A model generated the notes under the pieces. That model was not told the DNA's origin. It saw only the letters and a program-made list of their open reading frames with translations, and made no database searches. Of a stretch of 53,835 nucleotides of DNA, positions 7,184-53,834 are shown in pieces; position 1 is the stretch's first letter; each line of letters begins with the position of its first letter. This stretch comes from Fragilaria crotonensis. Lineage: Eukaryota > Bacillariophyta > Fragilariophyceae > Fragilariales > Fragilariaceae. Location: the NCBI GenBank assembly GCA_022925895.1, contig JAKSYS010000424.1:1-53835 (forward strand), written 5' to 3'. Position numbers and translations under genes: made by a program.

Positions 7184-7187
7184 GAAT

Positions 7188-10219: not shown

Positions 10220-10245
10220 CCAACCACAGCAGTAGTAATTAAGTT

Positions 10246-10333
10246 CTCGCGTGCTAACGCACGCCGGAACGGGGTACACTCTGGGAACCTCACGGTTCCT
10301 AGACGGTGCTAACCCTCTATAATTAGGTTTTAT
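10246..10333 (+). other. Structured 3' UTR end of LINE-B
   Basis: Hairpin 1 at 10249-10264: GCGTGC-TAAC-GCACGC. Hairpin 2 at 10281-10302: CTGGGAACC-TCAC-GGTTCCTAG, enclosed by GGGT/ACCC and CAC/GTG pairings (10272-10315). The end is ATAATTAGGTTT. The same architecture with different stem sequences ends LINE-C. Such 3' structures are typically bound by the element's own RT. Confidence 0.7.
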
Positions 10334-10352
10334 ATATTGTAATCCCGATCGA
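10334..10352 (+). repeat. Target-site duplication of LINE-B (right copy; left copy 8398-8416)
   Basis: ATATTGTAATCCCGATCGA in both places, identical. Coding sequence of the LINE-A RT. Confidence 0.95.
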
Positions 10353-11807
10353 ACGAACCAGAGTTGTTGGTATATGATTGGCTTCGTCGACGACATGAAT
10401 GGGCAGGCCAATGATTTCTTCACCACCGAGCACCGAGATTCGCTACAGACGATCCATCAACGCACACAGGAAAACGCCACAATTTGGGCTCAACTTTTAG
10501 GAGTGTCCGGAGGCCTACTGGAATTGCAAAAGTGTTCGTATCATGTGATGTCATGGAAGTTCACTGTTCATGGAGCACCTATCCTTGCATCGTGTTCACA
10601 AGAATATCGACACATCGAGGTTACTAATCCAGTTGACGGGCAAAAACCAAGTTCTCACGTATCTTCCTCCTCACACAGCGCATAAAACATTGGGACACTA
10701 TAAAGAACCAGCTGGGACACAGACTGAGCAATATCGGCAACTTTACAGAAAGAGCGATTCCATCACAAATTTTCTATGGTCAGCCTCCTTATCTCGCGTA
10801 GAAACGTTGATGTTCTACAATGCATGTTATTTGCCATCTATTTGTTACCCGCTAACTTGTTCCCACTTTACTCGCCAGCAACTGGAAAAATTCAAAGAAG
10901 AGCTATGTCCATCATCACGGCCAGGAGCGGTTACAATCGGAATACTAAGAAGGAAATCTTATATGGACCCATCGAATTTGGAGGCGCCAGGTTTCATCAT
11001 CTGTATGACAGACAAGGTATACAACAAGTAGCATACTTCCTACGACACTGGAGGGCGCAGACAGAAGTCGGAAAAATGTTAAAATGCGCCATTGCATGGG
11101 CGCAGCTGAACGTCGGAGTGTCGTACCCGATCTTGGCTCACACATCGACTACACTTCCCCACTTCGAATCTAAATGGATTAAGTCCCTACGACTGTATTT
11201 GGCCTGCATTCAAGCAAGTATAGAGCTAGACGAACCAAGTATACCTCAGACTCAGCGTCGGAGAGACTCATATATCATGGATCATGTCTTGGAATCCAGG
11301 AAATTTAGCCCGACGGAAATACGACACATCAATTATTGCCGCTTGTACTTACAAGCCATTACTGTTTCGGATATGGCAACGACAGAGGGAACCCATCTGG
11401 ATAACAGCAAACTTCACGGGGGTGTGTCATTATTAAGCTGTCGAACGACATGGCTTGAAGTGCACCAGGAGAAACCATCAGACAAAGCATGGAGAACATG
11501 GCGAAGAGCGAATCTCTTATGGAGTTATTCAGACGGACGCCTCAAAGTCCCACTACAAGAGTGGCTTCATCCGACACCGCTTCTTAGAAATCGGTACGCA
11601 GCATACTCTTACCGGTCCCGAGTATGGATTCGAGTCGCAGCGACGGATCAGTACTTGGAATATCGAGTGAGCACATTGATAAAGAGCGACTCCCAACCAC
11701 TGAGGGAAATGTCCTTCGCACAATTACCACGCAAAGCGACCCCCGGCGGAGCTGAAGTACACCACCTCCGGAGTTTGGAAGGTATCGGAAAAAGTCGCGC
11801 TATATAA
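10353..11807 (+). pseudogene. LINE-A reverse transcriptase motif C, thumb and connection region
   Basis: Continues the RT split at 8416. GFVDDMNGQAND at about 10377 carries the catalytic DD pair (FVDD rather than the common YADD/FADD). KCSYHVMSW and HKTLGHYKEPAGTQ follow and are shared with LINE-D. Frames change near 10640-10690 (10374-10685 into 10570-11031) and again near 10850-10900 (into 10776-11807), with RSGYNRNTKKEILYGPIEFGGA matching LINE-D. A further shift near 11760 joins this segment to the RNase H frame at 11851, because the sequence just upstream of 11851 is open and reads sensibly. Confidence 0.85.
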
Positions 11808-11850
11808 AGCTCCAACGCCAACGCCTCCGTCAACCGTAGCGACGTTCGAC

Positions 11851-16924: not shown

Positions 16925-17054
16925 AAAAAAAAAACCAAACCTCTATTTTACGTGCTGCCGCTTCTTTCTTGCATAAAAGTTCGACCCACACGACTGAACA
17001 TACCTCGCTCGAGAAGCACGTCCAGTAGCCTTTCTCATTACTCCACAATGATCC
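16925..17054 (-). other. LINE-D 3' UTR and oligo(T) tail
   Basis: Read on the minus strand it ends GGCAGCACGTAAAATAGAGG, TTTGG, then T10-11 directly against the target duplication. The terminal box is shared with LINE-A and LINE-E, whereas the rest of the UTR is diverged. Confidence 0.8.
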
Positions 17055-19763
17055 CTACCGTTGAGGCGCGAAGTATGTCCTTATCGATCGTACGCCAGCG
17101 ATGGCCGTATTTTTAACACGCTTCATACTTTCTTTAAAAACCGGTGCGTTCACCGTCAGCCAATTCTGTGTGACCCAAGTCGGCCGCTGCAGCTGATCCT
17201 GTATATCTCGGCATAATAATTCCTGCACCCTTGGCTCGTAGTGATTTCGGTTATCATATGCCGCGCGAAGTTCCCGTTCAACCTCTTTTCTTTTTGCCAA
17301 ATTTTGAGCGGCTTGATCGCATCCATGTAGCTCTTCGTTTCGTACTTTCCACAATTGCATCCATTTTTTCCATATGTGTGATATCATCTTCGTTTGCCAC
17401 TTTTCGCCACTACGTTTATCGTTCTTCCCGTGCTGACTCCTCTCTCTTGCATAGTAATCATCTTGCACTCTACTCCATTCAGTCCCGAACCTCCCGTTGA
17501 ATAGCTGCCTCCAACCTATAGCATTCTGTTGTTGGATCACCGTACGTACGTCGGGATGAAATTCGTTTGCATTGAGGACCAAATCATCGTCTTCGGTCAG
17601 CATCCATTCTCCGATTGCCTCTCTCAATAAATGTCTTAGCGGTCGATACGTATCAACTTTTGTGTGAAAACCCTCGATCGAGGACATAAATTTCGCTCTC
17701 CAGAGCTCTCGACTTTCTGCTGTGCATCGAATTATGTGATCTCGGTCTTCTCGTGTGGACCTTTGACACCCAGGACATAGTCGTCTCCCGTTGTCCTGGC
17801 GATTGAGATTCTTAAGAGTTGGCAGGCACTCGTGGACCATTTTTGTGAGTTGAAGTCGATGTTTAATATGTTTGCGCATTGATTTACCGTGAGCACTCCA
17901 GTTGATCATCTGCATGGTGCTTTCGTCGAAATTGTTCTTCGTTTGGATGTATTGTTTCAATGGTTCACTTGTTGCTCGTCGACGGATATCGGGTCCATAT
18001 TTCGCCGTTCTCGTTCCTTCTGGATAAACTAGATAAGCTCCGGTGTGCTTAGTCATCAAAGCATATGGTCGAGCCTGACCGTATTTCTCCTGATACTCTC
18101 GTGCCATATCATCCGCGTCCACGTTGAGTTGAGCATACAAATCGAGTCGGCTATAATGGCGTTCGCGATCTTGATGGCCTTTCACGTACATTAACTTGAC
18201 CATTGGTAATTGGAGAAGTGATTCTCTAATCTCTTTCAAGAGGTCCCATTCTGGAATCATCGGATTTAGCGGTGTGATATCGGTGGGGAGAGTGGTCGGA
18301 GTAGCAGCTGCTGGACCGCTGTTTTTATCTCGACCAAAGAGCGTGTCGAGCATACTCTGACTATCTGTCGCAATCGTCCCTGTCCATGGACCGTCCATCG
18401 CTGTAAACTCTGCAAGCCTGATAAGGAACCTCAGTATCGACAACATTCCACTGCACTCAGCCCGGTACGAATCCATTACACTTCCTCGCGATGGACCCAT
18501 TCCTTTTGCCGCTCTTTCCCCGTTAGTGTTGCTCAATGTCCATCCGAATGCTCCGTCTGTGCCGAACTTTTCTGACCCATCGCTCCCTGCAGCAAAGGAT
18601 TCTTGTAGTTCGAGGCATATAGTATACGGGTCCACCAAAAGTTCTGTGTGTTCTAACAGATCGATTTCCCACGCTTCCAGAGTGTGAATATAATCCTTGA
18701 ATGTTGCAATTGGTTGCTGCTGGCGTTGTATAATGGCCGTCCGATGAACTAAACGCCAGTGCGCGTTGCCGCTCGCCTCGATTTCTACCGGAACCGCGTT
18801 GGCAGGAATGTCCTGTAACTTGATCGTTCTCCTCCCTAACTCAAAAATCTGCGATCGACCTTTACGGTATCTGTGGTATTCTCCAGCTTGCGTTCGCACG
18901 TATAACTTGTCAGAAGTTGCGTATGAGAAATGTTCCAGGCGACTTCTCGAATGGGGAAGTTTCCAGCGCCCTAAAGGCTGGAGGAGGATGCCATTTTCAT
19001 GACTCCATAATTTATTTGCTCTTAACCATAACCGCCACTCAGCTTTTTCCGGTCTTTCTTGATGTGCCGTCAACCACTTAGTCTTAATACTCATGAGAGA
19101 AGTTGTTCCTTGCAATTTGGCATTATCGAGACGGTCGCCTGCCGATGTTGCCAAATCCGCAATTGTCAGCGCGCCGAGATACAACCGGCAATAGTTCAGC
19201 TTGCGAATCTCTGCCTCCGTGAATTGCTTCGAAGCGATAACGTGATCCATTATGTATGAGTCGTGCTCTCGTTCCATTGGTGCTAGCCCTGTACTGTCGA
19301 CCTGGATTCTTGCGTCGATGTGTGACAAATATTTCCGAAGGGATAACAACCACCGAGATTCAAGATGCGTCAACTTTGTATGGACGTCTTCTAAGATAGG
19401 AGTCGATATTCCTGCGCAGTATTGGGCCCACGCCACAGCGCATCGCAGAAGTTGTCCTGCTTGTGTCCGAAGTCTCCAATGGTAGAGGAAAAGGTGTATT
19501 TGTCCTATTCCTTGTTGGTCATACAGACGACGAAAATTTGCTCCGCCTAACTCGATCGGCCCGAATAAGATTTCTCTCTTTGTATTCCGATTGTAACCGC
19601 ATTTTGCAAAGATAATTGCCATGGCTTTCCTCTGGATGTTCGTGAGTTGGGCTTCGGTAAAATGTGAGTTCGCTAACGGATATCCGATGCTTGGCAGATA
19701 GCATGCGTAGTAGTAAGTCCACGCTTCTTCTCTTGTGAGCGTGCATGTACGCATGAATTCCAC
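17055..19763 (-). CDS. LINE-D ORF2 C-terminal segment: connection, RNase H, zinc knuckle
   Basis: 902 open codons. N-terminal part: YYYACYLPSIGYPLA and CGYNRNTKREILFGPIELGGA (same region as LINE-A). RNase H: AAGSDGSEKF..GAFGW (Asp), DSYRAECSGML (Glu), TIATDSQSMLDTL (Asp), YVKGHQDRE..LNVDADDMA (His, Asp). Zinc knuckle CPGC..DRDHIIRC (C-X2-C-X9-H-X3-C). It ends TAIAGVRSIRTYFAPQR, conserved among A, D and E. RNase H residues are complete. It is one protein with the RT at 19843-21387, separated by a frameshift between about 19763 and 19980, so the Met at 19763 is internal. Confidence 0.87.
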   Translation of the reverse strand: MEFMRTCTLTREEAWTYYYACYLPSIGYPLANSHFTEAQLTNIQRKAMAIIFAKCGYNRNTKREILFGPIELGGANFRRLYDQQGIGQIHLFLYHWRLRTQAGQLLRCAVAWAQYCAGISTPILEDVHTKLTHLESRWLLSLRKYLSHIDARIQVDSTGLAPMEREHDSYIMDHVIASKQFTEAEIRKLNYCRLYLGALTIADLATSAGDRLDNAKLQGTTSLMSIKTKWLTAHQERPEKAEWRLWLRANKLWSHENGILLQPLGRWKLPHSRSRLEHFSYATSDKLYVRTQAGEYHRYRKGRSQIFELGRRTIKLQDIPANAVPVEIEASGNAHWRLVHRTAIIQRQQQPIATFKDYIHTLEAWEIDLLEHTELLVDPYTICLELQESFAAGSDGSEKFGTDGAFGWTLSNTNGERAAKGMGPSRGSVMDSYRAECSGMLSILRFLIRLAEFTAMDGPWTGTIATDSQSMLDTLFGRDKNSGPAAATPTTLPTDITPLNPMIPEWDLLKEIRESLLQLPMVKLMYVKGHQDRERHYSRLDLYAQLNVDADDMAREYQEKYGQARPYALMTKHTGAYLVYPEGTRTAKYGPDIRRRATSEPLKQYIQTKNNFDESTMQMINWSAHGKSMRKHIKHRLQLTKMVHECLPTLKNLNRQDNGRRLCPGCQRSTREDRDHIIRCTAESRELWRAKFMSSIEGFHTKVDTYRPLRHLLREAIGEWMLTEDDDLVLNANEFHPDVRTVIQQQNAIGWRQLFNGRFGTEWSRVQDDYYARERSQHGKNDKRSGEKWQTKMISHIWKKWMQLWKVRNEELHGCDQAAQNLAKRKEVERELRAAYDNRNHYEPRVQELLCRDIQDQLQRPTWVTQNWLTVNAPVFKESMKRVKNTAIAGVRSIRTYFAPQR

Positions 19764-19842
19764 TGATTCGTCGCTCTTTCTCTTCAGCTGTCTGTATTGC
19801 TCCTTTTGTGTCCCAGCTGGCTCTTTGTAATGTCCGAGTGTT

Positions 19843-21387
19843 TTATGAGATGCGTACGGCGATAAGTACTTGAGTCGTTGTTCTTCGCCGTGGATAGAAT
19901 CTGTGACCGTGACTCCTGCATATTTTATCGGTTCTGTAATGAGAACTGGAGAACCTTGTCCTGAATTGCCATGCCATTACATGATAAGAACATTTGCTCA
20001 ATTCCAATGCACCCCCCGTGGAGCTCAGTAGATCGGACCAAAGTTGTGCATTTGCTTGCATCTGATGTAACATAGCTTGTCGTGACTGTTCGGTTTCTTC
20101 AGCTAAAAACTGATTCGTTTGTCCATTGGAATCGTCGACGAATCCCACCATTCCTAAATTTGCGTGTTCGGATGTATCCGGTGAATAATATTCTGCTTTG
20201 AAAGCTTTGGCATCATAACAATCGTACAGGATGCTCGATAAGAAACACCAGATAACTGGTGAATTTCCGCTTCCTTGCCCTGTTCCGTAAATGGGATTAG
20301 AATGACAATGACTGTAGCTCTCTTCTGCAAGTCCCAAATCTGTTCGTATCCGGTATTGGGCTTGTTGCAACGTATTTGCGTTTACCGATGTGACCGTTGC
20401 TGGAACTCCGAATGTTCTGCTTGTCACCATTGCGAGATTTGGTACTATCCTATCGTAGCACGCAGTCGCGTCGTAATTGGTCTGAATCAGTGTTTTCCTT
20501 GTTAGCCGCGAAATTTCCATTTGTAGCTCTTCTATAAATACCGGATCGAACGCGTTTCGATTGGGGCGTGATCCATACTGACCGTCGTTCAGCATTCTTT
20601 TCTTCTCTGCTCCGTAGAGTGCTGATCGCCATTTCAGACCCATGGCGAGGTTGTAATCAGCCTCGTATAAATGGATTACTCGTGTGCGATGGATTCGGAT
20701 ATTTCCCGGTTCTTTGAAAATAATTGTATTTGCAACTTGATGCCATCGAGTGAAAGAATATCCGCGTAATAACGCGTAATTGATAAGTTTCAGATGAACG
20801 TCTACCAATTCTGCTTGCATTTGATCCAATTCTTCGCGTTGTCGTTTGTGGTTATCATCCTCCTCCTCTGGTATAAACGAGTAAGCGTGTTTCGCTATCA
20901 GTGTTTTATAGTGTCCGAGGTGAAGGCCTGATGGGGATGTCGTCGTCGTTTCCCTCCAGATGCGTAATTTTGCTTTGAATTCTTCCTCATCGATCTTCGG
21001 GCACGTATGTGCTGATGCTACTGCTTCCGTTTGTTTGAGATGTTGCAAAAGAATCCCCACGTTATCGTCCAACTCGTCGCGCGAGTATTCGCCTCGAAGA
21101 ATTGCTTCAGTTGAGCTGCTTTGTCCCGTGAATCCTAGGTCGTCACTGAGCGGTGGGACAGTGAATGGTGTGCCATGCGCTTGTCCGAAGTGACGTCTGT
21201 TACGTTCTCGTAGATGATGCACAATCTCTGTTGGCACATCGATTTGTCGCCAATCTGTGCACTGATTTGGATCATCTTCTGTGCTAGCTGGTATCTCGAG
21301 GCGTGTGACACCTGTCTTTTCCTTGGTGAGTCGGAGGCGTTTAAGCTTTTCGAATAGGTTTCTGATAGCTTCTCCTTTTGCAAACAT
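19843..21387 (-). CDS. LINE-D ORF2 reverse transcriptase segment
   Basis: 514 codons. SPSGLHLGHYK (151-161), IRIHRTRVIHLYEADYNL (230-247), GQYGSRPNRNAFDP (269-282), motif A YDATACYDRI with D306 and D312, motif B YGTGQGSGNSP (367-377), motif C GFVDDSNGQ with D418/D419, then KCSYHVMAWQF. After that the frame is lost (shift near 19980). The catalytic triad is intact. The upstream endonuclease frame ends at 21414 and a frame change joins the two near 21390-21410. Element RNA is copied at the nicked target by this domain. Confidence 0.88.
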   Translation of the reverse strand: MFAKGEAIRNLFEKLKRLRLTKEKTGVTRLEIPASTEDDPNQCTDWRQIDVPTEIVHHLRERNRRHFGQAHGTPFTVPPLSDDLGFTGQSSSTEAILRGEYSRDELDDNVGILLQHLKQTEAVASAHTCPKIDEEEFKAKLRIWRETTTTSPSGLHLGHYKTLIAKHAYSFIPEEEDDNHKRQREELDQMQAELVDVHLKLINYALLRGYSFTRWHQVANTIIFKEPGNIRIHRTRVIHLYEADYNLAMGLKWRSALYGAEKKRMLNDGQYGSRPNRNAFDPVFIEELQMEISRLTRKTLIQTNYDATACYDRIVPNLAMVTSRTFGVPATVTSVNANTLQQAQYRIRTDLGLAEESYSHCHSNPIYGTGQGSGNSPVIWCFLSSILYDCYDAKAFKAEYYSPDTSEHANLGMVGFVDDSNGQTNQFLAEETEQSRQAMLHQMQANAQLWSDLLSSTGGALELSKCSYHVMAWQFRTRFSSSHYRTDKICRSHGHRFYPRRRTTTQVLIAVRIS

Positions 21388-21413
21388 CTAAGGCGCTTCC
21401 GTTGCATCGGCTT

Positions 21414-22994
21414 TCAGTGTTGAAGCTCTAACATTTCGATTCGTTTTCGTCTCTCACGGTCGCGTCTCTGATAACTCTCTTGAACAATCGCTTTGACTTC
21501 TCTTTTTGCCTCTCTTAACATAACTGAACACTCATGTATTGTCTGCGGTAGCTCGTCGACCGAAGTGATGTTTCCCCATTCTTGGTTGATTGTTTCTGTA
21601 TTCAGTATTCCAGTACGTTTCGAAGATATCCACTTTTGCAATACTTGTACTTTTTTTCTCGCCTTGGCCAATTCTGCTGACCAGTGTGGTGCATCGAACC
21701 GTGGAATAACTTTTTCTGCTGCGAGGCTTGCGGCAGTTACATCTTTGTCAATCCGTTCTGCAAAAACGTGGCGATTTCCGGGTCGGTCAAGTTGTTGTAT
21801 ACGCTCGAAGACGTTGTGATCTTCCAGAAATTTGTGTTTAGCTTTGATGTAAGCGGTTACTTGTTGCAGGTTATTGGATTTTAGAACTCGTGGTTCAAAC
21901 TTTGCCAACGGTTGAATTTGAACTCCAAACAATTGGTCAATTGCGAAGTCGACGTAATAAGCCCGATGATCTGTTGGAAATTTTGCGTTGAACGCTTCGT
22001 AACCTGCATTGACCACCGACTGTATTATGCCCGGAGTTGCGAATGCGTAATCGAGACATTTGTGTCCTCTTGAGTATGTCGCAGGTAGCGGACCTGAGTG
22101 TTTATTGCTCATTACATTCGTGAGTTCATTGTCATCCAGTATTTTTTGCATTGCGTCGGGATCTGAACCTATGCACTCGTTAAAATCTCCGAGTAGAAAG
22201 ATTTCCTCGTTTCCTTCGCGGCATTGCTTTAGATAATTTCCCAAATCTCTGCGGAAAGCCACCCTCGGGGCGGTGATGTTGTCTTGTGCTTGAATGAGAA
22301 GACTTTGTTGTTGCGATGCGGCTGTTATCAATCCTTTGCCTGGGAAATCTGTTACTACTTGGTATGCCGAGATAATTGAAATTATTCGTCCTGTCCGTCC
22401 TTGGAGTTTGTGGCAAACCCATCGTCCCCATCCGTCTTGGTATACTGTTCTTACGCGTCCTGTTATATCTCCTACTGTCATCATAAACGTTCCGCCCGGT
22501 TTGTAGTGATTTTTGAATGCTACCGGTGTATTGGAAAAATTTATTCTTGATCTCTTCCAATGCTGTTTTGTTGTGTCGTATAAGATACTTCGAACAGTCG
22601 ACTGAACAGTGTCCAAATTGTGTTCTTGTCCGCATATAATGTCCGCTTGAACTTCTCTCATTGCTGCGCAATAATGATCGAATTGTCCTCCGCGTCGATC
22701 GAGTGTGAAACCGTTAACGTTCCCTGAGTAAACTCGCAACGTGCCTGCCTCCTTTGATTGTAACTCGTCTCCCCAGTATGTGTTCGTTCTTTGATTTGCT
22801 CTTGATATGTGTATTTCCCGGTGTGTTCTCTGAGACTCCGTACTGTTTTCTGTTCGCTGCGTAAAAATTCTCCTCCACTCCGTTTGTGCGATTGTTAATT
22901 GTTCTGTGTTCGTGTGTCGCCTTGTTGTTTCCGTTGGTGTGCTCTGTCTTCCGAGAAGTTGTGTTTCTCTTACGTCTTCCTGATTTTCAATCAT
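21414..22994 (-). CDS. LINE-D ORF2 N-terminal AP-endonuclease segment
   Basis: 526 codons. AP-endonuclease (EEP fold) signature: SGNVNGF (N94), CGQEHNLD (E124), LLGDFNECIG (D270, N272), KCLDYAFA (D315), FPTDHRAYYVDF (D342, H343). All expected catalytic residues are present, so the domain should be able to nick target DNA. The start ATG at 22994 overlaps the ORF1 stop as ATGA, which supports this start and suggests termination-reinitiation. The frame stops with TGA at 21414-21416 just before the RT domain, where a functional element would read on; this is probably a lesion. The C-terminal 100 residues are Lys/Arg/Glu-rich. Confidence 0.87.
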   Translation of the reverse strand: MIENQEDVRETQLLGRQSTPTETTRRHTNTEQLTIAQTEWRRIFTQRTENSTESQRTHREIHISRANQRTNTYWGDELQSKEAGTLRVYSGNVNGFTLDRRGGQFDHYCAAMREVQADIICGQEHNLDTVQSTVRSILYDTTKQHWKRSRINFSNTPVAFKNHYKPGGTFMMTVGDITGRVRTVYQDGWGRWVCHKLQGRTGRIISIISAYQVVTDFPGKGLITAASQQQSLLIQAQDNITAPRVAFRRDLGNYLKQCREGNEEIFLLGDFNECIGSDPDAMQKILDDNELTNVMSNKHSGPLPATYSRGHKCLDYAFATPGIIQSVVNAGYEAFNAKFPTDHRAYYVDFAIDQLFGVQIQPLAKFEPRVLKSNNLQQVTAYIKAKHKFLEDHNVFERIQQLDRPGNRHVFAERIDKDVTAASLAAEKVIPRFDAPHWSAELAKARKKVQVLQKWISSKRTGILNTETINQEWGNITSVDELPQTIHECSVMLREAKREVKAIVQESYQRRDRERRKRIEMLELQH

Positions 22995-25058
22995 TTTGTC
23001 CTAGTATGTGCCTCGAGTTCCATAATATGGGCCAAGGACTTGTTGGTGCTCTCAATTCTAGAGCCTTGCTTGTTAATGTCGTCGTCTTCTGACTCCGACA
23101 TCTGATTTTTGTCTCCCTGTTCCTTTAGGGCCGACTCGTTCGTAAACTTTTCTTCTGTAGGTGGTGGACTTCTAGTCGACCACTCAGATTGCGAAGCAAT
23201 CTCCTCGAGGTAGTCAGGTGTATTCCACATTCCGCTACTTTCGGTCAGTTCTTTTGTTGGGGTTTTTGTTGGTGTTTTTTTGTTGTCTCGTCGTTTGATG
23301 GAGTCGTCACCTCGAAATGTCTCATGAGCGTCTTCTCCCTCGGTTGTTGCATCTTGAATCTGGGTAGCCGATCTCTTTCCTAGGCTTTGGTCGTGGTGTT
23401 GTGTGGACATCATTTGAGCAAACATAGTGGTCATTTGTTGTGTGAAAGTCGAGAATTGCTCTTGTAGAGCTAGTGCCACTTGTTGTTTAACCTTCTCGTC
23501 AATTGCTTCACGTTCTCTTTCCACTTGTTCCTTAACCTTCTCCTCGATGCGTGCTTGTTCTTGAGTTCTGATTTCTTCAATTTTGCCAATCTCTTTGAGT
23601 TGCGCCACCTCTTCGCGGCTGATTTCTAAATCCTTCTTCAACGTCCTCTGAATGTCCGATTCTTCCGATGACTTGAAATCAGTTGATGAATGTGCTCGAG
23701 AGCCGCGTGCAGTTTCTGCCCAAGATCTTCCGTTGAGTGATGACATGGCTTGGCTTCCTCCGAATGTCGAGTTATCCGTCGAGCTTTGTTGTTGTTTTGG
23801 ATAAACGAAGATTGGTGGGCTGTCGGTTGACAAATTGGATCCGATGGACATTGCTGTGTTGATGCTAATGGTTAAGTATGATTGATCGCCTTGCGAGTCG
23901 CCGTCTGATTCGATGGGTGAAACTTCTGGAGGTCCGGGTATCTATGCTCTGGGGCTTTGGCGTCTGGTTCAACAAACTCGTCGTACCATTTGGGAATGAC
24001 ATCCTTGAGATGGTCTCGGACTTTGTGATAGTTCTTTTGATGAACGAGGACTTTGTATCTGCCATCTTCGTTGACTGATGCGCATGGCAATAGAGACAAG
24101 ATTCCTGGAATGGCGAAATTCGATCAGACAAGTAATGCATTGCGTCTGGACCGATATGATTCAAGATGATTACATAATTTGTAGCAATCATCTGAGTTTG
24201 TGCTTTGATAAATCTTTCGAAAGCTTCGGGGTGACGTGTGCGCATCTTATATTGCACAAAAGTGCCATCCTCCTTGTAAGCTGTTTTCAGATGCTTGGTT
24301 AATTCCTCGCGGTCTGCTCGCATCGTCTTGATAGCATATGCTTTTGTTCGCACAATACGGCCGTTTCCTTTTCTCATTTTTGGGGAGCAATAGACCAACT
24401 TGAATTTGGGTACTTTTGTTCGCGGAAAACTCTGCTGAATGGTTTTTGTCACTTTAATTGTGGCTTGATCAATATCATGAAACTGTGGATCGATTCCGTA
24501 TAGAAAGCCCAATTGTGTTGTTTCCCAGTCTGCTTCGCTCCAGCGGTGTTCGTTTACGTAGAAATCATGATCTTTCATAAGCTTAATCACGTTTGCTGCT
24601 TCTTTGAGTTCTCCTAACGATACTGATGTCTGAATCCGGTGAACTATGTAACTGGTGACATGGGGATGATTCGAATTCTCTTTGCGGTCTCTAGAGCGGT
24701 GTTGCGTTGTGTGGCGGTCGAAATGAAGCTGGAATTGCAAGGTGTGCTCCTCCGGGTTGGTCCTGAGGGGATCTACTTTGCCAACAATGCGGTTTCGATT
24801 GTCGAAGAATTTCACATCTTCTCCGAAAGCTTTGGTTACTTCGTGCATCCAATGTGCGTGTAGAATGGCGGGATGAACTCCGTCTTTGTCTCTGGGAGGT
24901 ACAAAACGGAATTTGATAGTCTTTTCAATCTTCAGTCCATTGTTCGACCTCGTTTTTTCTCCTCGCGTTGGAGTGATGACTGTGTCATCGTCTGCGGTTG
25001 GATTCATTCGTCCAGATGGATTCCCATCCTCAGCGAGATGAACGGAAGGGTTCATCAT
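22991..25058 (-). pseudogene. LINE-D ORF1 (nucleic-acid-binding/coiled-coil protein)
   Basis: Three frames form one protein. 25058 (ATG, MMNPSVHL) to about 24130: mixed alpha/beta region with basic patches (KIEKTIKFRFVPPRDKDGVH). Then about 24120-23920 in a second frame (GRYKVLVHQKNYHKVRDHL). Then from about 23920 to the stop at 22991 in a third (VSPIESDGDSQGDQSYL, SIGSNLSTDSPP). The last part has a strong Glu/Lys/Gln coiled coil (about 23640-23480) and an acidic Ser/Glu tail. There is no CCHC knuckle. ORF1 proteins of LINEs coat the RNA and often trimerise through coiled coils. The stop overlaps the ORF2 ATG. ATG 25058 is preferred because it is the first ATG after the 5' UTR hairpin. Confidence 0.75.
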
Positions 25059-25144
25059 TGTCAAACGACGTAGGTACAAAACCTACGGTAGATTCACGTA
25101 GAAAAACCTAGTAAGCTTACTATTTTCTCTTAAGTGAAAATTCT
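25059..25144 (-). promoter_or_regulatory. LINE-D 5' UTR with two inverted repeats
   Basis: A 14-bp perfect palindrome TAGTAAGCTTACTA lies at 25109-25122. A 7-bp stem with 5-nt loop (CGTAGGT-TTTGT-ACCTACG on the element strand) lies at 25069-25087, ten bases before the ORF1 ATG. LINEs carry internal promoters in the 5' UTR. Whether these structures act in transcription or translation is unknown. Confidence 0.45.
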
Positions 25145-25162
25145 ATTTTGCTGCCCAGTTCA
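25145..25162 (+). repeat. Target-site duplication of LINE-D (right copy)
   Basis: Identical to 16907-16924 and part of the Plavaka-like transposase coding sequence (LNWAAK). Confidence 0.93.
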
Positions 25163-25730
25163 GTACCAGGGTAAATGCTTTGACAGGACAGTTCAGATCG
25201 CGTAAGAGTTGCAACAACTCAATTTGGACCTTCTCCTCCCGAGAAAAACGTTCGAGACCAAGTGGGTTGGACCGTAGCTTAAAGAGTTTCTCATACAAAT
25301 CAAAGACACTGTGGTCTGCTTGACATTTCTCCTCTTCACTTTCCAAAACATCCTGATCATCAACGCGACCGTAGTTGGAAGCGTCGTCGTTGTCAACGAC
25401 AAAGTCATCCTCCTCGGATTCATGTCCATCTTTGACACCTAGCTTTTTGTGCACCTCTCTGCCACTCTCTTTGACACCACGAGATGAAAATGAGCTCAAA
25501 TTAAGGCGCCTGTGAGGAGTGCCTTCTTGCAACACCTCATGACTGGTATTCACGTGACTATTGTTTGAGATGTTGTTGGATGTTGTTGTTGCTGAGTTGT
25601 CGTGCGTAGAGTAATGCGATGCACACCATGCATTTTGAGCAAGGTGGGTGCCAAGCCTCTTGAAAGGCTTCTCGCAACCAACACAAACATCTGATGTCGA
25701 CATGAAAGGTGAAAGACAATGAATGCACAA
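25145..25730 (-). pseudogene. Plavaka-like transposase, N-terminal part
   Basis: 195 codons ending LVLNWAAK at the LINE-D junction. After removal of LINE-D and one duplication copy the frame continues directly into 16924-14103 (NWAAKSNASGHVFQ). N-terminus: C-X2-C-X9-H-X6-C finger (CVGCEKPFKRLGTHLAQNAWC from residue 16), a DNA-binding or BED-like candidate. Then comes a Ser/Asn-rich linker and an acidic stretch (DGHESEEDDFVVDNDD). ATG 25730 or the internal MSTSDVC at 25703 could be the start. Confidence 0.7.
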
Positions 25731-41658: not shown

Positions 41659-42748
41659 GAGAATGCCTAATGCACTAACAATTAAGGCGCTAACTAATCG
41701 CTAACCCAATCAAAATCCGCGGAGACGTCATCATTTCGAGTCTCGTCGTCACAGATTTTTTGCACCCCCGTCTTTAAGTGAATCAAGAAGTCATTGTTGT
41801 GTGAAGAAGAATCATACCGATGTGAATACAAATAAAACTTTACGCACATGTAAGATCATGTCATATCACATGGAAAAAAATCGGCAGTTGATGCCTTATG
41901 CATATGACATGTGAAGGATACATATACTCGTATACATATCCTCGCGATACCTGTAGAATTTATGCTATGTATCGGTACATACGGAGTACACATTCCTCTA
42001 CAAGACGAAACGACGACCACGCCGTTGATGACAAACCTACATCATTTTTATACTGCAAGTCTACGAGCCCAAAGCAACGAATAACGGCGTGGTCCAAGAA
42101 CTTGTACGAACCCAAGAAACGTTCTCATGCACAGTTGCGACATACTGTAATCCATACTGGAGTAGGATGGCTTTACGCGTACCTGCTACTGGACTCGATT
42201 TAAAAACAGTACGCCGATACCGGTATGATACTAGGTAGAGCACTACGGTGTTGTTGTTGTCATCATCCTGCATCAGAAATGCTTGGAATGTTGATCAAAA
42301 CCAGAAAGCTTCACCCCATTGTCACAAATACTGACTACAATTGCTACATGCACTACAGACACAGATTGCAAGCAAAGATGAAAGGATGAACTACAGAGAT
42401 ATTTCATGCAGATTGTCTGCAGTTGAGGGTCCATGGTCCATGGTCCCAGAAGTAACTTTTTGTGAGCAGTGAGCAATATCAAAAGTGTGCGAACGTGTCA
42501 ACCGTAGTACTCCAGTACTTATATGATTCAAATTCTACGCACCGTTAATTTTGTTCCCAAAAAATGCGGGTCAGATTTATACTATTATCCATATCCTTTG
42601 ATTGTTCATCGGATTTGAATCTAATTGATATTTTTTGAAGAGGTCGATGACCCTTTTGGGGTTTGGCAACCCCACCCCAAATCTGGAAGATTTTGATTGG
42701 GTTAGTACTTTAGTTAGCGCCTTAATTGTTAGTGCATTAGGCATTCTC
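41659..42748. mobile_element. Non-autonomous Mutator-like (MULE) element with ~60-bp TIRs and 9-bp target duplication
   Basis: Left TIR 41659-41717 starts GAGAATGCCTAATGCACTAA. Its complement forms the right TIR 42689-42748. The first 39 bp match perfectly, then a 3- versus 4-nt mismatch, then 17 more matching bases. Both ends are flanked by GATACAAAT (41650-41658 and 42749-42757), a perfect 9-bp target duplication typical of Mutator-like elements. The 970-bp interior has no transposase, so it would need one supplied in trans. It lies 160 bp upstream of the gene at 42911. Confidence 0.93.
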
Positions 42749-46689: not shown

Positions 46690-46943
46690 TTGTGTGGGGG
46701 TGGAATTCAGCACTTTCACATGATCCGAACAGCACCAAGTCTTCATGGCAACAAGCGCAGCAGCAAAACCCAAGGCAAAATGAGCAACCAAGACACCTTC
46801 CAGTGGATCCAATGGTGCGTTGTGCAGACAAGATTGCATTTCAAAACAATGGACAGTTTTATGACCAACACCACCAGCCACCTGTAGCAGGGGTCCAAAG
46901 AGGCCAGAAGAATACGAATGCTGGAAATGTGGGCTTCATCTAA
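46690..46943 (+). pseudogene. Gln/Asn-rich C-terminal protein fragment cut by the 46937 element
   Basis: The frame SSWQQAQQQNPRQNEQPRH, DPMVRCADKIAFQNNGQFYD, NTNAGNVGFI stops at TAA inside the left terminal inverted repeat of the downstream element, so the natural end is missing. No family recognised. It may be debris of another transposon. Confidence 0.4.
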
Positions 46944-46955
46944 GGGTGCCAAAAC

Positions 46956-47160
46956 TAAGTACCATAGTTGATACAAGAATTTTTTATCATATTTATTGGA
47001 AAAATTTCAGGATTCCCATATTTAGTTCAGGATTCCTGAAGTTTTTTTCTGGTTTATTTATTTAGTTCAGGATTCCGACATTTGCTGTTTCCTCATTTTT
47101 ATGAAGAATTTTTTTTGCTCCTGAACTACTGCAGTATTATTCCTGAGCTTTTTTCTTCAT
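46956..47160. other. Left subterminal region with repeated TTCAGGATTCC words
   Basis: TTCAGGATTCC at 47006, 47026 and 47066. The second extends into the palindrome TTCAGGATTCCTGAA. Reverse-orientation relatives occur near 47119 (CTCCTGAACT) and 47139 (ATTCCTGAGC). The right end has six TTCAGGAA-type words. Candidate transposase-binding sites. Confidence 0.6.
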
Positions 47161-47820
47161 TATTTCGATGCACATAAAACACCGAGTACTGTACGTGTTT
47201 TGTACGAAATACTGGAGTAGCATGGTGTATCGTGGGTGGACTATTGGTTGTGCCGTACAGTGTACAGTATACAGCGGTTTTTACAGTGCTGTCAGCTGGG
47301 GGATACTACCGTCGTACTAGCGCAATGGTTCGTTGTTGGTTATACGCTGTACATTGTACGTTGTACAAGTAGCTATGGGCGTGTCTGGTGCATGGTGCAT
47401 GGTGTTCGGTGCCTGCTACAGTACGTTTAGTATGGTGCGGTGGTGTACAGTATGGTAGCTACGGCGTGGTCTGTGTGTATGGTAGTGTGGTACTGTGTAC
47501 GGTACTTTCATTACTATAGCGCTGTGTTTTGTGTACTACGGTATGGTGGTAGCGTATAATTTTTAGTACAGTATTGTATCATGCGAGTACTCCTATGACA
47601 CTATGCTACGTACTACGTGATCTTGTGTTTTCAACAACAAACCGTAGAATTGTAGGCGATAGTATGTACTGATTAATTCTTTGGCACCAATACCAGTGCA
47701 TGCTGTATATTTCTACAAGGAATTAATTCTTTTTCAGCCACAGTATTGTCTTTAGTAGAATCGTACGTGATTTTTTTGCGGAAGTGTCACATCTCACACT
47801 TCGTTCGTTGAGCACTCCAC
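47161..47820. other. T/G-rich spacer with GTAC words
   Basis: No gene seen. Many CAGTAC/GTACGT words and repeated GGTGCATGGTG. Looks like satellite-type or decayed repeat DNA. Confidence 0.45.
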
Positions 47821-48780
47821 CACTTGGTGTCATGCCCGACACCACATTGATGCTCCATTATTTGGCATCTTCGCCCTTCTTCGTCCTTTCCCACCATTAG
47901 ACATTGCAGTCTTAAGTGGTAAGACTGCAAATGTGCTTTTTTCGTGTTGATTGTTGTGTTGATTGAATGTTTCCATCATGGTGATGGTCGAATGAGTTTT
48001 GAGGTACTCCTGTTGTGCCAGTACCGTTGTCTACGTACGGTGCTCAGGGTGCAGTCAAGTACTGGGACGAGTTCGCACGACAGTACCTTGAGGTTACGGT
48101 GATACACTACGTCGCGCCTGTACAGTCGTCTACCTACCGTACTTAGGGTGCTGCCAAGTACTGGGAGTACGACAGTACCTTGAGGCTACGGTAATACACT
48201 ACGTCGCGCCTGTACCGTGGTCTACACCGTACTTATGGTACTGCCAAGTACTGGGAATACGACAGTACCTTGAGGCTACGGTACAACACTACCTTGTGCA
48301 TGTACTGTTGTCTACGCACTGTACTCATGTTGCTATCAAGTACTGGGAGTATGACAGTACCTTGGTGGACGCCACGGTTTATTACAATACTACCTTGTGC
48401 CTGCTGTACGGTTGTCGATGTCACAACTTGGTGTCATGCCCAACACCGCATTGAATGTTTCATTCTGTGCTTGTCCCCTTGCCCTTTGCTTCTTCTTCCT
48501 TTCCACTAACAAGGGCACTTAACTGTCGTTCTTGTTCGTGAGTTTTTGATTGTTTTGTCCTATCAACACAAGAATGTTGTGTTGAATCGTGCTTTCCATC
48601 ATTGTGAGCAACTGATTGATTTGTTGAGGTACTCCTGTTGTGCCTGTACCATTGTCTACGTACTGTACTCATGGTACTGTCAAGTACTGGGACGAGTTCG
48701 CACCACGACAGTACCTTGGAGGCTTCCGTACAACATTGTGCTGGTACTGTACTCCAGTCTTTCTTGTTGACGTTGTGTCA
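47821..48780. repeat. Higher-order tandem repeat: ~90-100-bp units within a ~604-625-bp period
   Basis: CAAGTACTGGGA..GACAGTACCTTG recurs: AGTACTGGGA at 48058, 48157, 48247 and 48339, then at 48683. A longer module (ACTTGGTGTCATGCCC) starts at 47822 and again at 48426, followed each time by TTTCCATCAT and GAGGTACTCCTGTTGTGCC. A third, more decayed module may follow 48765. Non-coding. Confidence 0.85.
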
Positions 48781-49118
48781 TTGCACATGATTGTATTTTC
48801 CAGCTTTCAATCTCACATCCTCCTCTTCTTCTCCTTTCATAATTAGGATCCTTGTCGACAAGTGTTGTGCTTCTCATTTTGTTGTTAATTGAGGGAATAA
48901 GTACTTCGTCTTGTGTGCGTGCTTCGATTGAGTTTGTAAGGCAATCTGTCATCTAGAATCCAATATTCGGTCATCTGCGAGAGATTCTCATTGATTTGAG
49001 TGAATCAAACCAGATTGATCTACCGGTATTGGTTCTTTTTGTCAGTTGTCTGTTCGCATGCTCAAGAGTTGTATACACGCACACCAGTTGGAGGATTATT
49101 CATATTTCAACCAACAAA
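48781..49118. other. Decayed third repeat module and 5' flank of the next gene
   Basis: No coding evidence apart from short frames. Immediately precedes the ATG at 49119. Confidence 0.4.
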
Positions 49119-50083
49119 ATGGCAGAGGTTCCATCACTGTCCCCTGTCTCTCAGCAAGGAGGAGTCCCTATGGATAAGGCGTACCTGTTCCGTGATGGTA
49201 TGGATGAATTCACACCACCTCCAGGAACAAAGGTCAATAAACAATTCAGATCGCAAGTTCGAGTCTTTTTATCATCACCCGCTCGTGCTGTTTCAGAGTT
49301 TCCACTACACATGTTCAGCTCTTGGTTTCAAGACCTCCCGTTGTCCAAGATTATGACTCAGAACGAAAGAGAGGACTCCAATGAAATTTGGCAATTCAAG
49401 GTAGTTACGTTGTACCACACGTGTCCAAACAAACAAAGCTGAGGCGACAAGGTTTAAGTGGGCGACAGAAGCTGCAAGGCAATTCTACAGCACATCATTC
49501 AATTCTACAGAAGCTGATTTGAGCTCTATCGATCGTGCTGTGAATTCTGATCCATCAATAATGATTGTGGGACGTCCTCTTGAAAAGAAGATGACCCCTT
49601 CAAGAAATCTGTCATAGGGTGCCAAGACTCTGTTGTTATTGCATGCATTACATTTCAAGTGGAATTGGAGATGAAGTTGGTGCGTCGTTGGTGCTTTGGC
49701 TGTTGATTGCAGAATCTGAATCACGGAAGCCATCCGGTCTTACATCCTGGAGACGGCAAGGGTTTGGACGTCTGATGTTAGTAATGCTCATCAAGCATTC
49801 AACTTTTTTATTATTGTCTCACCGTGAGCTGTCACAATGTCAGGAGAGCCTACATGGTGTGGACATCTACTTGCAGTGTCCCCATGACGAGCCAAAGGAA
49901 TTCTACCAAGCCTGTGGGTTCCGTCAAATCAATCTCCAAGACACAACTGGCATTGAGTTTCTTCCCAAGACAATTGCCGACACCTTAATGGACGAGACCA
50001 CAGGTGGATTTGCATGGATTGTACCAGAGTCTGAGGAGCACTGCATTATCCCTCTGATGAAACTTTCTTCCGGTTCCCTTTGA
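49119..50083 (+). pseudogene. GNAT-like N-acetyltransferase in the large element, frameshifted
   Basis: ATG at 49119 in a good context (AAAATGG): MAEVPSLSPVSQQGGVP, KAYLFRDGMDEFTPPP, FPLHMFSSWFQDLPLSKI. Near 49400 the frame changes (possible intron GTAGTTACG..AAAG or a shift) to ATRFKWATEAARQFYSTSF. Then KKSVIGCQDSVVIACITFQ (a beta strand as in GNATs), another shift near 49670, then TSWRRQGFGRLMLVMLIKHS with the acetyl-CoA loop R-x-x-G-x-G, and VDIYLQCP..KEFYQACGFRQIN with the GNAT-typical Y..CGF. Stop at 50081-50083. The GNAT assignment rests on these motifs. At least two lesions. The substrate is unknown. Confidence 0.6.
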
Positions 50084-50245
50084 ACAGTGCTGCTAACAGT
50101 GCTGCTGTCGAGGTTGTTGAAAGCAACAGTGATGTGATCAGTGCAACAAGAAATGATGGTTCCCGCGTGCTGTTGTTGAGTCAGAGGAAGAAAGCAAGAT
50201 CAATATAGTCGCAAAATCGAGTGGTGGTTCCCTTCCTCGTGAGCA

Positions 50246-51229
50246 GTGATGTTTTGGAGATTGTGCAGAGCAACAATGAGACAGTCAGTGCACGGAATGA
50301 TGGTAGCAACACCAGAAAACATTTGTATGGTGCCAATACCTTCATCAACAATCGATCTCCAAGATGATGTTGCAAGTGGAGCATTGCTGACAAATGCAGA
50401 TCTGGAAGAGGCATTTACCGGTCTGGACTATTTGAACAACCTTCTTCCACCACCATTTGGTGACCTGGTTCTGCCTGACCAGTTGCGTGGTTTTGGAGAA
50501 ATGGGATCACAGGAAAGGCTTGATCATAGCAAAAGTGGTGGAAAACTTGATGGCCACCCGTGAGCTGCAAATGATGACTTCACTCCTCATGAGGGATGGC
50601 AGGTATCACACATCAGTTGCAATCCTGTCTTTTGACGACATGCAGGTAATTAAGGTTGCTTTGGACGCCTTCAACGTCATCTATCTGCAAAGAAGTACGA
50701 AACGACTTGATGGTAGCCAATGGAGCCGATCATGCAGAATGTCTTGCCCTTTGAAAAGGTATGGAAGTTCTAAGGAAGAACTTACCAGAAGTATGATGAC
50801 CAAATGAATCGTGTTGTGAAGGAAGTCCTGTTGTTCTATCCAGGGCTTCTGCAGAAAAGGTTGATTGTGTTTCCTACTAATCTCAGCAACGATCATTGGG
50901 GGCAACATTTGTTTTCAATGCTGGAGACGTGGCTGCCACGGATGATGTATCATGCCTCCGGACATGTTTTTTTCGCTATTGCAGTCTTCATCCCTCCGGC
51001 ACGAGAAAAATTCCAAACAATGTCGGTGTTGTCTGGTTCCTGAACCTTGCCTTCAGTTACCAGGAGCAAAGGAAAAACAGTGCAAATGATAGCAGCACTC
51101 CAAACAAGATGAAGTGGCTCAGTCCGTTCGGACGAACCTTTTTTGGGCAAATGAAGGGCACCAATACATTCCTCTTGTTACTTGTGCATGTGATATTCCC
51201 ATCCTCATGAAGACGGCGACGGTGTGAAG
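50246..51229 (+). pseudogene. Possible Ulp1/C48-like cysteine protease in the large element, decayed
   Basis: Frames in sequence. 50246-50500: TIDLQDDVASGALLTNADLE, DYLNNLLPPPFGDLVLPDQL. 50490-50750: EKWDHRKGLIIAKVVENLMA, YHTSVAILSFDDMQVIKVAL. About 50720: PIMQNVLPFEKVWKF. 50804 onward: FYPGLLQKRLIVFPTNLSND, HWGATFVFNAGDV, NVGVVWFLNLAFSYQEQRKN, and finally WANEGHQYIPLVTCACDIPI with a stop at 51229. 'IvFPtN....HW...fvf' resembles the His region of Ulp1/C48 proteases, which are common in large DNA transposons. The Cys is uncertain. It could instead be a different family. Confidence 0.45.
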
Positions 51230-51768
51230 CAGAAGCCCCATGTGTTGCTGCATGGTGTGATTTCTTCACAATGAAATTATAACACCCGATGTTTCTATCA
51301 ATATGCTGTGTATATGCTGCTTGATTGGAAAAGGGTTTCTTGTTGAAATTCAGGCAGAAGGGGTTTTGACAGAAGAGCAGGGGTGCCTTTGAGGAAGCAG
51401 ACGACAACATTTTGAAGAGAAGGTTTTGAAGAAAGGGTTTTGAAGAGGACGAGTGAAGTGAAAATGAGGTGTTGAAATTGACAGGACACAGATTCACTAA
51501 ACAGAAGTTCGGGAAAGCGTGCATTCAAATTGTACATTTACTTTCGGTACATTTTTGGTGTATGTAAAGAATGAAGGGGGGTGTGGTATGAATTCAAAAT
51601 TTGAAAACCCTGCATGAATGTGTAGAACCTACATACCAACTCGGTACTTGGTATGAAATTCAAATGGTGGCAAAAAAGACTATCCCACAAACAGGATTTT
51701 CAGTGTTCAAAATTTGGCGCACAATCGGAAAGTTTTTCACACAACAAGGAAGCACCACAAATACAACC
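51230..51768. other. Spacer before the third gene of the large element
   Basis: No convincing gene. GAAGAGAAGG/GAAGAAAGGG-type purine repeats at 51412-51450. TACCAACTCGGTACTTGGTA near 51634 is an imperfect palindrome. Confidence 0.4.
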
Positions 51769-53275
51769 ATGGCATCAATGGCACACCAAACAGCAGCAGG
51801 CATGACTGCCTTAAAGCCCAGCTCTAGGAAACAAAGGAGAGACTTCATAAGAGGCGTGAAACGAGTGACCACAGATCCCAATGATCTGATTCAAAGTGAC
51901 AACGAGGAGGAGGAGGAGGAAGAAGTGCCACGGAAAATGGATGCAAAACTAGGACAGAAGCATGCATACGGAAATCCACCATCCCTACCTTCAACTATTA
52001 AAGTCGGGAAATCAAGTGACAGCCAACTAACATCATCGGTTCCAGGGCTAAGCAGCATAGTGGACATGAGCATGACGGAAAATACAGAAGAGAATCAAAT
52101 CAGTGTGATCAAGACTTGCATCAAAAACACGTGTTCTCTATTTGGAAGTTCTATCAAAAGACTATCATTCTCATTTCAGTGAAGATGAGAAAACACTTTG
52201 TGGCTTTATCATGAAGCACACAAACATTCGAGGAACCGAAAACTGGTGGCTTGGGATGCGGAGAATAGTTGTAAAACACACACTGATCTTCGAACAATGC
52301 AATAAAAAACATGCAAACGAAATTCAAAGGTGAGGAATTGAAGTGAGTGTACTTTGCCAAAGCCCGAGCATACTCACACTCACTTGCATTCAACATCAAA
52401 CACCTTGCATCCAGAGGGATTCACTTCCAATTTAGGAACGTATGAACACAGCCTATACAGTGGAAGCGAGGAAGAAACCAGTTACCTCCTCAAGATGAGG
52501 GATAATATCTGCTACTATGCCCAAATCATAGACACCTATGCCCCATGCATTGTCGGCAGCAGCAAGTGGAATAACACTATCAACATGGAGAACCACTGTG
52601 CAACAACTGACAGAAAAGTATGGAGCAAGAAAATCCTGTCCATAAGTGATGAAGCATTCATTTTGCTGTGCCTGATCAACTATGGGAAGAGGTGGTTCAT
52701 GGAATTAGTTAAGACAGAGAAAATGGTAAGTTTATCCGAATGGTTTGTCACAGAACAAACAACAAGAAACTGACTTGTTTTGTTATCACTTGTTGGAAAC
52801 AGCGAATTGGTACATGGACTGATGAGGACAACAACAACCTACCCGTAAGTTACACTATGATACTAAATGAAATGAAAAAACCACATCCTAACTTCTGACC
52901 AATCTTTGCAATACCATGTTCGGCAGCCACCACTTTACACATTCTCCAGGAACAAGGGTGCTCATGATAATGGGGGAGGCTGTGGTTGGTCACAGGTGGG
53001 AATGAGGAAATACGATGAATTATACATGGCCATCAAGAATGATAGAAAGAAATCAACCACCCCAACATTCAACCAGGAACTACTTAAAATGTTTCTGTCC
53101 AGAAGGAAAAAGGAGTCTGGCCGGGGGGTCAGGAAACAATTTGATGACAAGGGTAAGAAAACCACACAAGTGCATTGATGTATTTGACGAGGACTCTGAT
53201 GAGGAGGATGATAACTACTCCAGTCATCTTGCTCCTGAACTTGTCTACAGTGAATTGAAAGTGGAGGCAGTTTAG
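51769..53275 (+). pseudogene. Intron-containing gene of an unnamed protein family in the large element
   Basis: ATG at 51769 (ACCATGG): MASMAHQTAAGMTALKPSS, RRDFIRGVKRVTTDPNDLIQ, an acidic run, then IKTCIKNT. Two shifts near 52125-52180 lead to HFSEDEKTLCGFIMKH, ENWWLGMRRIVVKHTLIFEQ. A likely intron starts at GTGAGG 52331 and ends at ..CAG near 52411. Then NICYYAQIIDTYAPCIVGSS, LSISDEAFILLCLINYGKRW. Intron 52726-52802 (GTAAGT..ACAG, 77 bp), exon RIGTWTDEDNNNLP, intron 52845-52926 (GTAAGT..GCAG, 82 bp), then PPLYTFSRNKG, GWSQVGMRKYDELYMAIKND. One shift before the acidic end FDEDSDEEDDNYS. The pattern SDEAF.LL.L.N...RW ... GWS..G..+Y.EL resembles a multi-copy family I recall from diatom genomes. 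Function unknown. Confidence 0.6.
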
Positions 53276-53834
53276 AATAGATCAGACACTTAGTAATGAA
53301 TAGTAGAATGGTTCATCAAAGCCACACGAATAGGCACAATTAAAACTAATCTCCAACAAAAGTTAAAATGAGCGACAATAACATCTATTATATGAACAAT
53401 GTCAGCTCAGAACTACTGAGGTGATTACTTCATACACACTACACAGCAAACTTCTTCTTTTCGAATATCTAATTCAGGAATTGAAATTCATGATCACAAA
53501 TGAAGAAGTGGTATAGTTCATATATTTAGAGTCCAAGAGTTCAGGAATCCCACCCGAGTGTTAGTAAAATGAGTCAGTGAAATTCAGGAATTGAAATTTT
53601 GGAGCTCAGGAATGCAAAGTATGAGCTCCTATGCAAGAGATGAAAAGTTCAGGAAACATAAATTTCAGAGTTCAGGAATACGAGGAAACCCGCTTCATAC
53701 ACATGATGTACAAGCTCTTTAGTCCTAAGTTTTTACCTATATTTTAGGTAAAAATTATGAACAAAAAATTCTCATATCAAAGATAATTGGTTTTTCATAT
53801 CCAAGAGCCGACTTGGTTTTGGCACCCTTAGATG
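53276..53834. repeat. Right subterminal region with six TTCAGGAA words and right TIR
   Basis: TTCAGGAAT or a close variant at 53473, 53540, 53583, 53605 (CTCAGGAAT), 53648 (TTCAGGAAA) and 53671, all in one orientation. The TIR complement occupies about 53811-53834. No gene in this stretch. Confidence 0.75.

Follow-up and report, generated by a model that had tools for sequence, protein, structure and literature searches.

According to the available sections of PMC12730594, fungal PlavakaB transposons end in CATCA..TGATG and generate target duplications of 2 or 3 bp, PlavakaA transposons end in TGT..ACA with duplications of 2 bp, the transposases of Plavaka are similar to those of EnSpm, and some Plavaka elements carry TET/JBP genes. 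Here we examine a 6.9-kb unit at the right end of a 53,835-bp stretch of DNA from the diatom Fragilaria crotonensis (contig JAKSYS010000424.1; the whole stretch is hereafter the window). The unit is very probably a copy of a cut-and-paste transposon of the Plavaka type (CMC/CACTA-related) that an internal deletion has left non-autonomous. The 11.8-kb long form would carry a fused accessory gene, with a GNAT-like region followed by peptidase-like regions, convergent with a Plavaka transposase gene on the opposite strand, and an orphan gene (gene 3) near its right end.

The unit resembles fungal PlavakaB in its Pfam Plavaka transposase, in CA..TG ends that start with CATC and in its 2-bp duplications, and differs from it in ends that read CATCT..AGATG rather than CATCA..TGATG, in its diatom host, and in having a GNAT-peptidase gene and gene 3 where PlavakaB may carry TET/JBP (PMC12730594). 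The TGT..ACA termini of PlavakaA are not matched by these ends. The transposase of En/Spm (CACTA) is likewise similar to that of Plavaka, whereas EnSpm elements have CAC..GTG ends and 3-bp duplications, against 2 bp here (PMC12730594). A putative element-encoded Ulp1-like peptidase in stramenopiles has a parallel in the C48 peptidases that occur in some oomycete Cryptons; Cryptons differ in using a tyrosine recombinase and other ends, and no GNAT fusion is described for them in the available part of PMC3212892. Large size and accessory genes are shared with the KDZ group (Kyakuja, Dileera, Zisupton), and accessory genes are also carried by giant Ectocarpus elements (available part of PMC12477816). 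Two assignments were rejected, namely KDZ (Zisupton), for which an 8-bp duplication is expected and 2 bp were found, and PIF/Harbinger, for which a 3-bp TNA duplication is expected (PMC12477816) and 2 bp of varied sequence were found.

A literature search, outside which most subscription papers and Repbase lay, returned no report of a Plavaka with Ulp1, no comparable description of a diatom Plavaka (single mentions in the papers listed) or of a stramenopile one, and co-mention of Plavaka with an acetyltransferase only in a fungal secretome context. Plavaka elements that keep both a GNAT-peptidase gene and a third gene as companions of the transposase are provisionally regarded as a new form of a known type.

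Terminal structure and genomic copies

The unit is a genuine mobile DNA transposon. An earlier sequence-only reading of the window had proposed a transposon-like unit of 6.9 kb with inverted ends of approximately 19-24 bp, and the arms proved to be 24 nt long and 96% complementary (Table 1); their inner 15-mer, allowing two mismatches, has no further match in the window, where 0.02 occurrences would be expected. The genome searched was that holding the window (G000; 62.1 Mb in 881 contigs), and all counts of ends and pairs are lower bounds. The 19-bp end was present at a minimum of 121 places (up to two mismatches), the left-end pattern at no fewer than 56 and the right-end pattern at no fewer than 64, and each reversed-pattern control returned zero; one right-end place begins TGTCT. 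Pairing by position, which admitted spacings of 3-16 kb only, left 11 of the 56 left ends unpaired and may have joined some neighbouring elements, gave at least 45 convergent pairs: at least 16 of 6.6-6.9 kb, the window unit among them, at least 15 of 11.7-12.0 kb and at least 14 of other sizes. Of the 15 in the 11.7-12.0-kb class, five were examined for the genes they hold.

Fourteen further units, selected by the CATCT..AGATG pattern, were compared together with both flanks. These termini were found in the window unit, in the 14 units and at both ends of five copies of two further families. The 2-bp flanks were identical in 12 of the 14 units and varied in sequence (TG, TA, TT, GA, CA, AT and CG), and a 2-bp duplication was seen by eye in all five copies of the two further families. 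The duplication of the window copy itself is not fully readable, since its right flank is a single base at the contig end. When the flanks of one unit, L007, were joined with one copy of GA, the resulting 198 bp matched at 198/198 positions at two places in the genome, and the joined flank sequence matched at 99% at three more: the target is itself repeated, and the empty site is cleanly preserved. L004 and L007 were inserted at nearly one site of a repeat that also exists empty, and their joined flank resembles, by eye, part of another transposase gene. The genome search for units bounded by the two ends, which the sequence-only reading had suggested, thus returned several copies with the same genes and short target duplications; pairs of ends do enclose these genes, an outcome whose opposite that reading had named as evidence against itself.

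One subfamily (B; units L001-L007) is non-autonomous and 6.7-6.8 kb in length, with L002-L007 each 98.8-99.5% identical to L001, and it has multiplied recently. These results establish young Plavaka in a diatom genome, with their ends, their target duplications and an empty site all defined.

Table 1. Features of the transposon copy, in window coordinates
Feature	Position	Strand	Remarks
Whole transposon copy	46937..53834	+	6,898 bp; very probably derived from an 11.8-kb element by internal deletion
Left terminal inverted repeat CATCTAAGGGTGCCAAAACTAAGT	46937..46960	+	
Right terminal inverted repeat	53811..53834	-	
Left subterminal TTCAGGATT word array	47006..47074	+	candidate binding sites
Right subterminal TTCAGGAA/T word array	53473..53679	+	
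Fused accessory gene, front half (GNAT and Ulp1-like region)	49119..51172	+	frame-broken, cut by the deletion; start codon by inspection
GNAT domain, C-terminal half, with R-x-x-G-x-G and Y..CGF motifs	49649..50083	+	97% identical to L018 open reading frame
Ulp1/C48-like region, His-Trp part only (Cys part lost)	50545..51077	+	limits by inspection; L018 segment corresponds
Internal deletion junction	51171..51172	.	2-bp microhomology CC
Plavaka transposase N-terminal remnant, zinc-finger-like C-x4-C...H...C motif (by eye)	51173..51524	-	matches start of 765-aa L016 open reading frame
Gene 3, orphan, introns predicted by eye	51769..53275	+	exons ~51769-52329, 52405-52726, 52802-52840, 52920-53275

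Internal deletion and the Plavaka transposase

The left 4.2 kb of the window copy was 98.4-98.7% identical to five 11.8-kb copies, the right 2.7 kb was 98.7-99.3% identical to the same five, and approximately 4.9 kb of the 11.8-kb form is missing from it. The junction so created occurs once in the genome. Nine short copies (L001-L009) constitute another subfamily, approximately 91% identical at the right end and with a different middle, and their likeness in length to the window copy is for this reason taken to be a coincidence. Interrupted repair after excision, using the short microhomology at the junction, may have produced the deletion, and the window copy would need the transposase of another copy in order to move. 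At C869:280201-281801 and C589:13559-15500 the fused gene likewise breaks internally and adjoins the interior of a transposase, the transposase matches reaching the edge of the fetched stretch, which suggests independent internal deletions resembling that of the window copy.

On the minus strand of the long copies, the missing 4.9 kb holds most of a transposase gene. The 765-aa open reading frame of L016 matched the Plavaka profile PF18759 with an E-value of 3.2e-10 (40.2 bits), and L030 (6.1e-9, 36.0 bits) and L029 (9.2e-12, 45.3 bits) did so too, all above the cut-off of 26.3 bits; by this profile match the transposase of the long copies is of the Plavaka type. Plavaka had been among the families that the sequence-only reading suggested for comparison. 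That reading had also stated that no known transposase was visible, which holds for the window, because the gene has been deleted from this copy, and fails for the element, whose long copies carry PF18759.

The motif criterion for Plavaka consists of C(2)C together with H(3-4)H between the second D and the last E. In alignment A4, as judged by eye, C-x2-C was seen only in L030, the first place being S or H in L029 and L016, and the invariant histidine pair was H(2)H, as opposed to H(3-4)H. A PDB search with a single transposase gave one chance match only, and a search for its relatives in prokaryote genomes led nowhere. A metagenomic contig labelled viral (L031) encodes at 5756-7915 a 49% identical Plavaka transposase, following a PiggyBac-like open reading frame (labels by eye); the contig turns phage-like inside the transposase gene (by eye), looks chimeric and was not used as evidence.

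Subterminal word arrays

The sequence-only reading had pointed to repeated words just inside both ends, and in the window copy TTCAGGA occurs 10 times in the outermost 400 bp of the two sides taken together and twice in the 6,098-bp middle. Terminal clustering of this word was also seen in the counted copies of family A and subfamily B (L014, L018, L001, L003 and L008), and word counts showed it to be absent from C449, C728, C131 and C147. A looser word, TTCAGGAAT with one mismatch, was mildly enriched across the whole window (25 occurrences against 16.35 expected, a number reached in 0 of 100 shuffles). As a control on 8-mers, the window ends were shuffled 200 times; in one of these sets an 8-mer occurred nine times, which exceeds the observed seven, and the shuffle maxima were five for L014 and four for L018.

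En/Spm elements also have terminal word arrays, bound by TNPA, as well as internal deletion derivatives, and their accessory genes differ from those of the present unit. By analogy with En/Spm, the TTCAGGA arrays are candidate binding sites, to which the transposase or the gene 3 protein might bind as TNPA does.

The fused gene with GNAT and peptidase-like regions

An acetyltransferase gene and a protease gene, separate from one another, had been described at first, and this arrangement was rejected, as both regions lie in a single open frame in C449 (1,414 aa), C874 (1,132 aa) and, by eye, C872 (1,145 aa), with the GNAT region preceding the Ulp1-like region. Of the 'three decayed genes on one strand' in the sequence-only reading, gene 3 stands as a plus-strand gene; the remainder is in reality the front half of the fused gene, also on the plus strand, and a minus-strand transposase remnant that had been overlooked. 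Downstream of these two regions, and on their strand, lies a second cysteine-peptidase-like region, which C449 and C728 have in another frame; it is putative and is named by motif only.

The GNAT part forms a single frame of 368 aa in L018, a copy of the same family as the window unit, and used as a query it matched C364:48981-49652 and 49649-50083. Two GNAT-like motifs noticed previously, RRQGFGR and YQACGF, were recovered within the window open reading frame 49595-50083 and coincide with conserved columns of alignment A1, which comprises L018 and four sequences from other families, the window copy being excluded. R-x-x-G-x-G is invariant in A1, and the acetyl-CoA motif of GNAT proteins is R/Q-x-x-G-x-G/A. 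The divergent relative L028 matched Acetyltransf_10 with 24.5 bits for the whole open reading frame and 27.5 bits for the GNAT part (cut-off 23.6), and NAA50 structures matched profile A1 at an E-value of 5e-4; NCBIfam yielded no more than one weak acetyltransferase match (E-value 0.062). The assignment to GNAT is supported by way of this divergent relative and profile A1. In the Ulp1-like region, H-W and Q-x-D-G-x-N-C-G motifs were seen by eye in most, not all, rows of alignment A2, which, like A1, includes L018. Searches of viral contigs for relatives of the GNAT, peptidase and Ulp1-like profiles led nowhere.

Frame breaks in presumably young copies

Between long copies (ten pairs) there were 18-46 substitutions and 59-90 gaps per approximately 11.8 kb; between short copies (four pairs) the figures were 2-10 and 21-31. 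Most gaps of 1 bp fall in homopolymer runs of at least two bases, as expected from indel error in repeats. As gaps exceed substitutions and 1-bp gaps lie mostly in such runs, we infer that many frames are interrupted by indels left in the assembly where repeats resisted polishing; the copies would also be young, the long ones showing 0.15-0.4% substitutions. The earlier description of the genes as decayed is hence doubtful, and in this assembly a frameshift in a young repeat may be no sign of decay.

Conservation of the three genes in divergent families

A search of the genome with the GNAT region retrieved the copies of families A and B and a further 21 divergent loci with identities of 27-31%. 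A transposase match was found beside 16 of the 21, at a distance of 3-5.2 kb and on the opposite strand, and beside four more (C874, C2, C869 and C589), likewise on the opposite strand, giving 20 of 21; gene 3 matched 2-3.5 kb from 19 of the 21, the exceptions being C872 and C314. The sequence-only reading had allowed that the genes might turn out to be ordinary host loci, and, C314 apart, this was not what was seen. Its proposal of a lineage with its own gene set was borne out in that the same ends enclose the same genes elsewhere; the transposase, for its part, is of a known type, Plavaka.

Several of these loci could be delimited. C449 (11,633 bp) and C728 (11,643 bp) have CATCTAAGGGGGCA ends with flanks of CA/CA and GA/GA, respectively, and C131, C147 and C874 have CATCTAA ends with flanks of TA, TA and CA (by eye); at C140 and C872, with one end examined in each, the right end has CATCTAAGG. 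The window exons of gene 3 had no match in Pfam, and for its relatives no Pfam match was better than an E-value of 0.07. In the family of the window unit gene 3 is situated near the right end and shares its strand with the GNAT gene, and in C449 and C131 it lies upstream of that gene on the opposite strand; gene 3 has therefore moved.

The ratio of nonsynonymous to synonymous substitution rates (dN/dS) was estimated by the Nei-Gojobori method, with alignment windows below 35% identity excluded, no ratio for pairs with saturated dS, and six of 28 fused-gene pairs skipped. The transposase gave 0.075-0.174, with a value for 8 of 10 pairs, and 0.08-0.10 between families; the fused gene gave 0.103-0.456, with a value for 15 of 22 pairs, and 0.10-0.26 between families; the gene 3 exons gave 0.097-0.453, with a value for 13 of 19 pairs, and 0.10-0.20 between families. 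The highest values came from closely similar copies. These codon comparisons show purifying selection on the three genes in the divergent families. The GNAT-peptidase and the orphan gene accompany the transposase across families, so that a part played by an element-encoded acetyltransferase in anti-silencing or in transposition can be put to the test.

The following results weigh against the account given thus far. Two of the 14 units, L004 and L010, lack matching 2-bp flanks. The GNAT scores of family A itself and of C449 fall below the Pfam cut-offs, and an AlphaFold model of the window GNAT fragment, computed without an alignment, was uninformative (mean predicted local distance difference test score 41.6). 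The Ulp1-like region matched Peptidase_C48 weakly, in one of the five members of A2 (E-value 0.011), its profile found no match in the PDB, and it offers His and Cys candidates with no clear catalytic Asp, the triad of Ulp1/C48 peptidases being His-Asp-Cys. The second peptidase-like region had no Pfam match and one chance match in the PDB, and since this part of C449 is in a different frame from the GNAT region, a single polypeptide for the whole gene is not established. C314 was the sole locus among the 21 with no transposase in the stretches examined, and the 21 represent fewer families (at least four shown), hence not 21 independent events. The dN/dS set consisted of divergent families and copies, family A being excluded for its broken frames, and dS was near or beyond saturation in many pairs.

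Possible roles of the accessory genes

In the preferred, though tentative, reading, the GNAT-peptidase might add acetyl groups to chromatin proteins and strip off SUMO-like marks, and so help copies of the element to escape silencing. It is conceivable, at a similarly low level of confidence, that this Plavaka lineage evolved an anti-silencing protein of its own, an acetyltransferase joined to one or two peptidases, of which one is SUMO-protease-like. If true, the GNAT-peptidase, inherited with the transposase and a DNA-binding partner encoded by gene 3, would be an acetylating equivalent of the TET/JBP and SET enzymes reported for other transposons.

A role for the GNAT-peptidase in transposition itself, for example in processing or modifying the transposase or the gene 3 protein rather than chromatin, is a possibility of much the same modest standing. 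The fused gene co-occurs with the transposase and is convergent to it, and C48 peptidases are found in another transposon class, some oomycete Cryptons (PMC3212892), both of which would suit such a role. On the other side, the solved structures closest to the GNAT region are those of N-terminal acetyltransferases, whose substrates say little here. For fungal Plavaka, moreover, TET/JBP is described, and the words 'protease', 'peptidase' and 'Ulp1' are absent from the main text of PMC12730594.

It is rather improbable that the fused gene and gene 3 are mere passengers, captured from the host and of no help to the element. Most accessory genes of the giant Ectocarpus DNA transposons are of unknown function (available part of PMC12477816), and subfamily B has multiplied although what its copies retain from the beginning of the GNAT gene matches poorly and is interrupted by stops. 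The GNAT gene is thus not needed in cis. Against passengers stand the common companion genes of the divergent families and the between-family dN/dS of 0.10-0.26, which would be unexpected for such genes.

A novel DNA transposon superfamily with its transposase among the unrecognised proteins of the window, as the sequence-only reading had supposed, accords with the orphan status of gene 3 and with the four window open reading frames of the unit that were scanned without a transposase profile match, and is nevertheless highly implausible, given that a Plavaka transposase lies in the deleted part, within long copies with the same ends, that only its N-terminal remnant is kept in the window, and that the ends and 2-bp duplications resemble those of Plavaka.

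Other elements in the window

Besides the Plavaka copy, a second, very divergent Plavaka-type transposase was observed on the minus strand at 14103-17054 (PF18759, E-value 4.3e-7), 23-24% identical to the others; its N-terminal end is possibly at 25152-25388, a non-LTR-like element having presumably been inserted between the two parts. The plus strand at 802-6870 holds an open frame of 2,022 aa belonging to a Copia-type retrotransposon (RVT_2 and gag_pre-integrs). Related gene sets in inverted orientation, reverse-transcriptase-like by eye, occupy 7208-13515 (plus strand) and 17055-25082 (minus strand), the latter with an Exo_endo_phos match at 21414-23000, and are likely the source of long imperfect inverted repeats. 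Finally, a 1,090-bp element at 41659-42748, which we take to be Mutator-like in form, has perfect inverted ends of 39 bp (GAGAATGCCTAATGC...) and a 9-bp flanking duplication, GATACAAAT; its end was found at 16 places in the genome, 10 of them in five convergent pairs.

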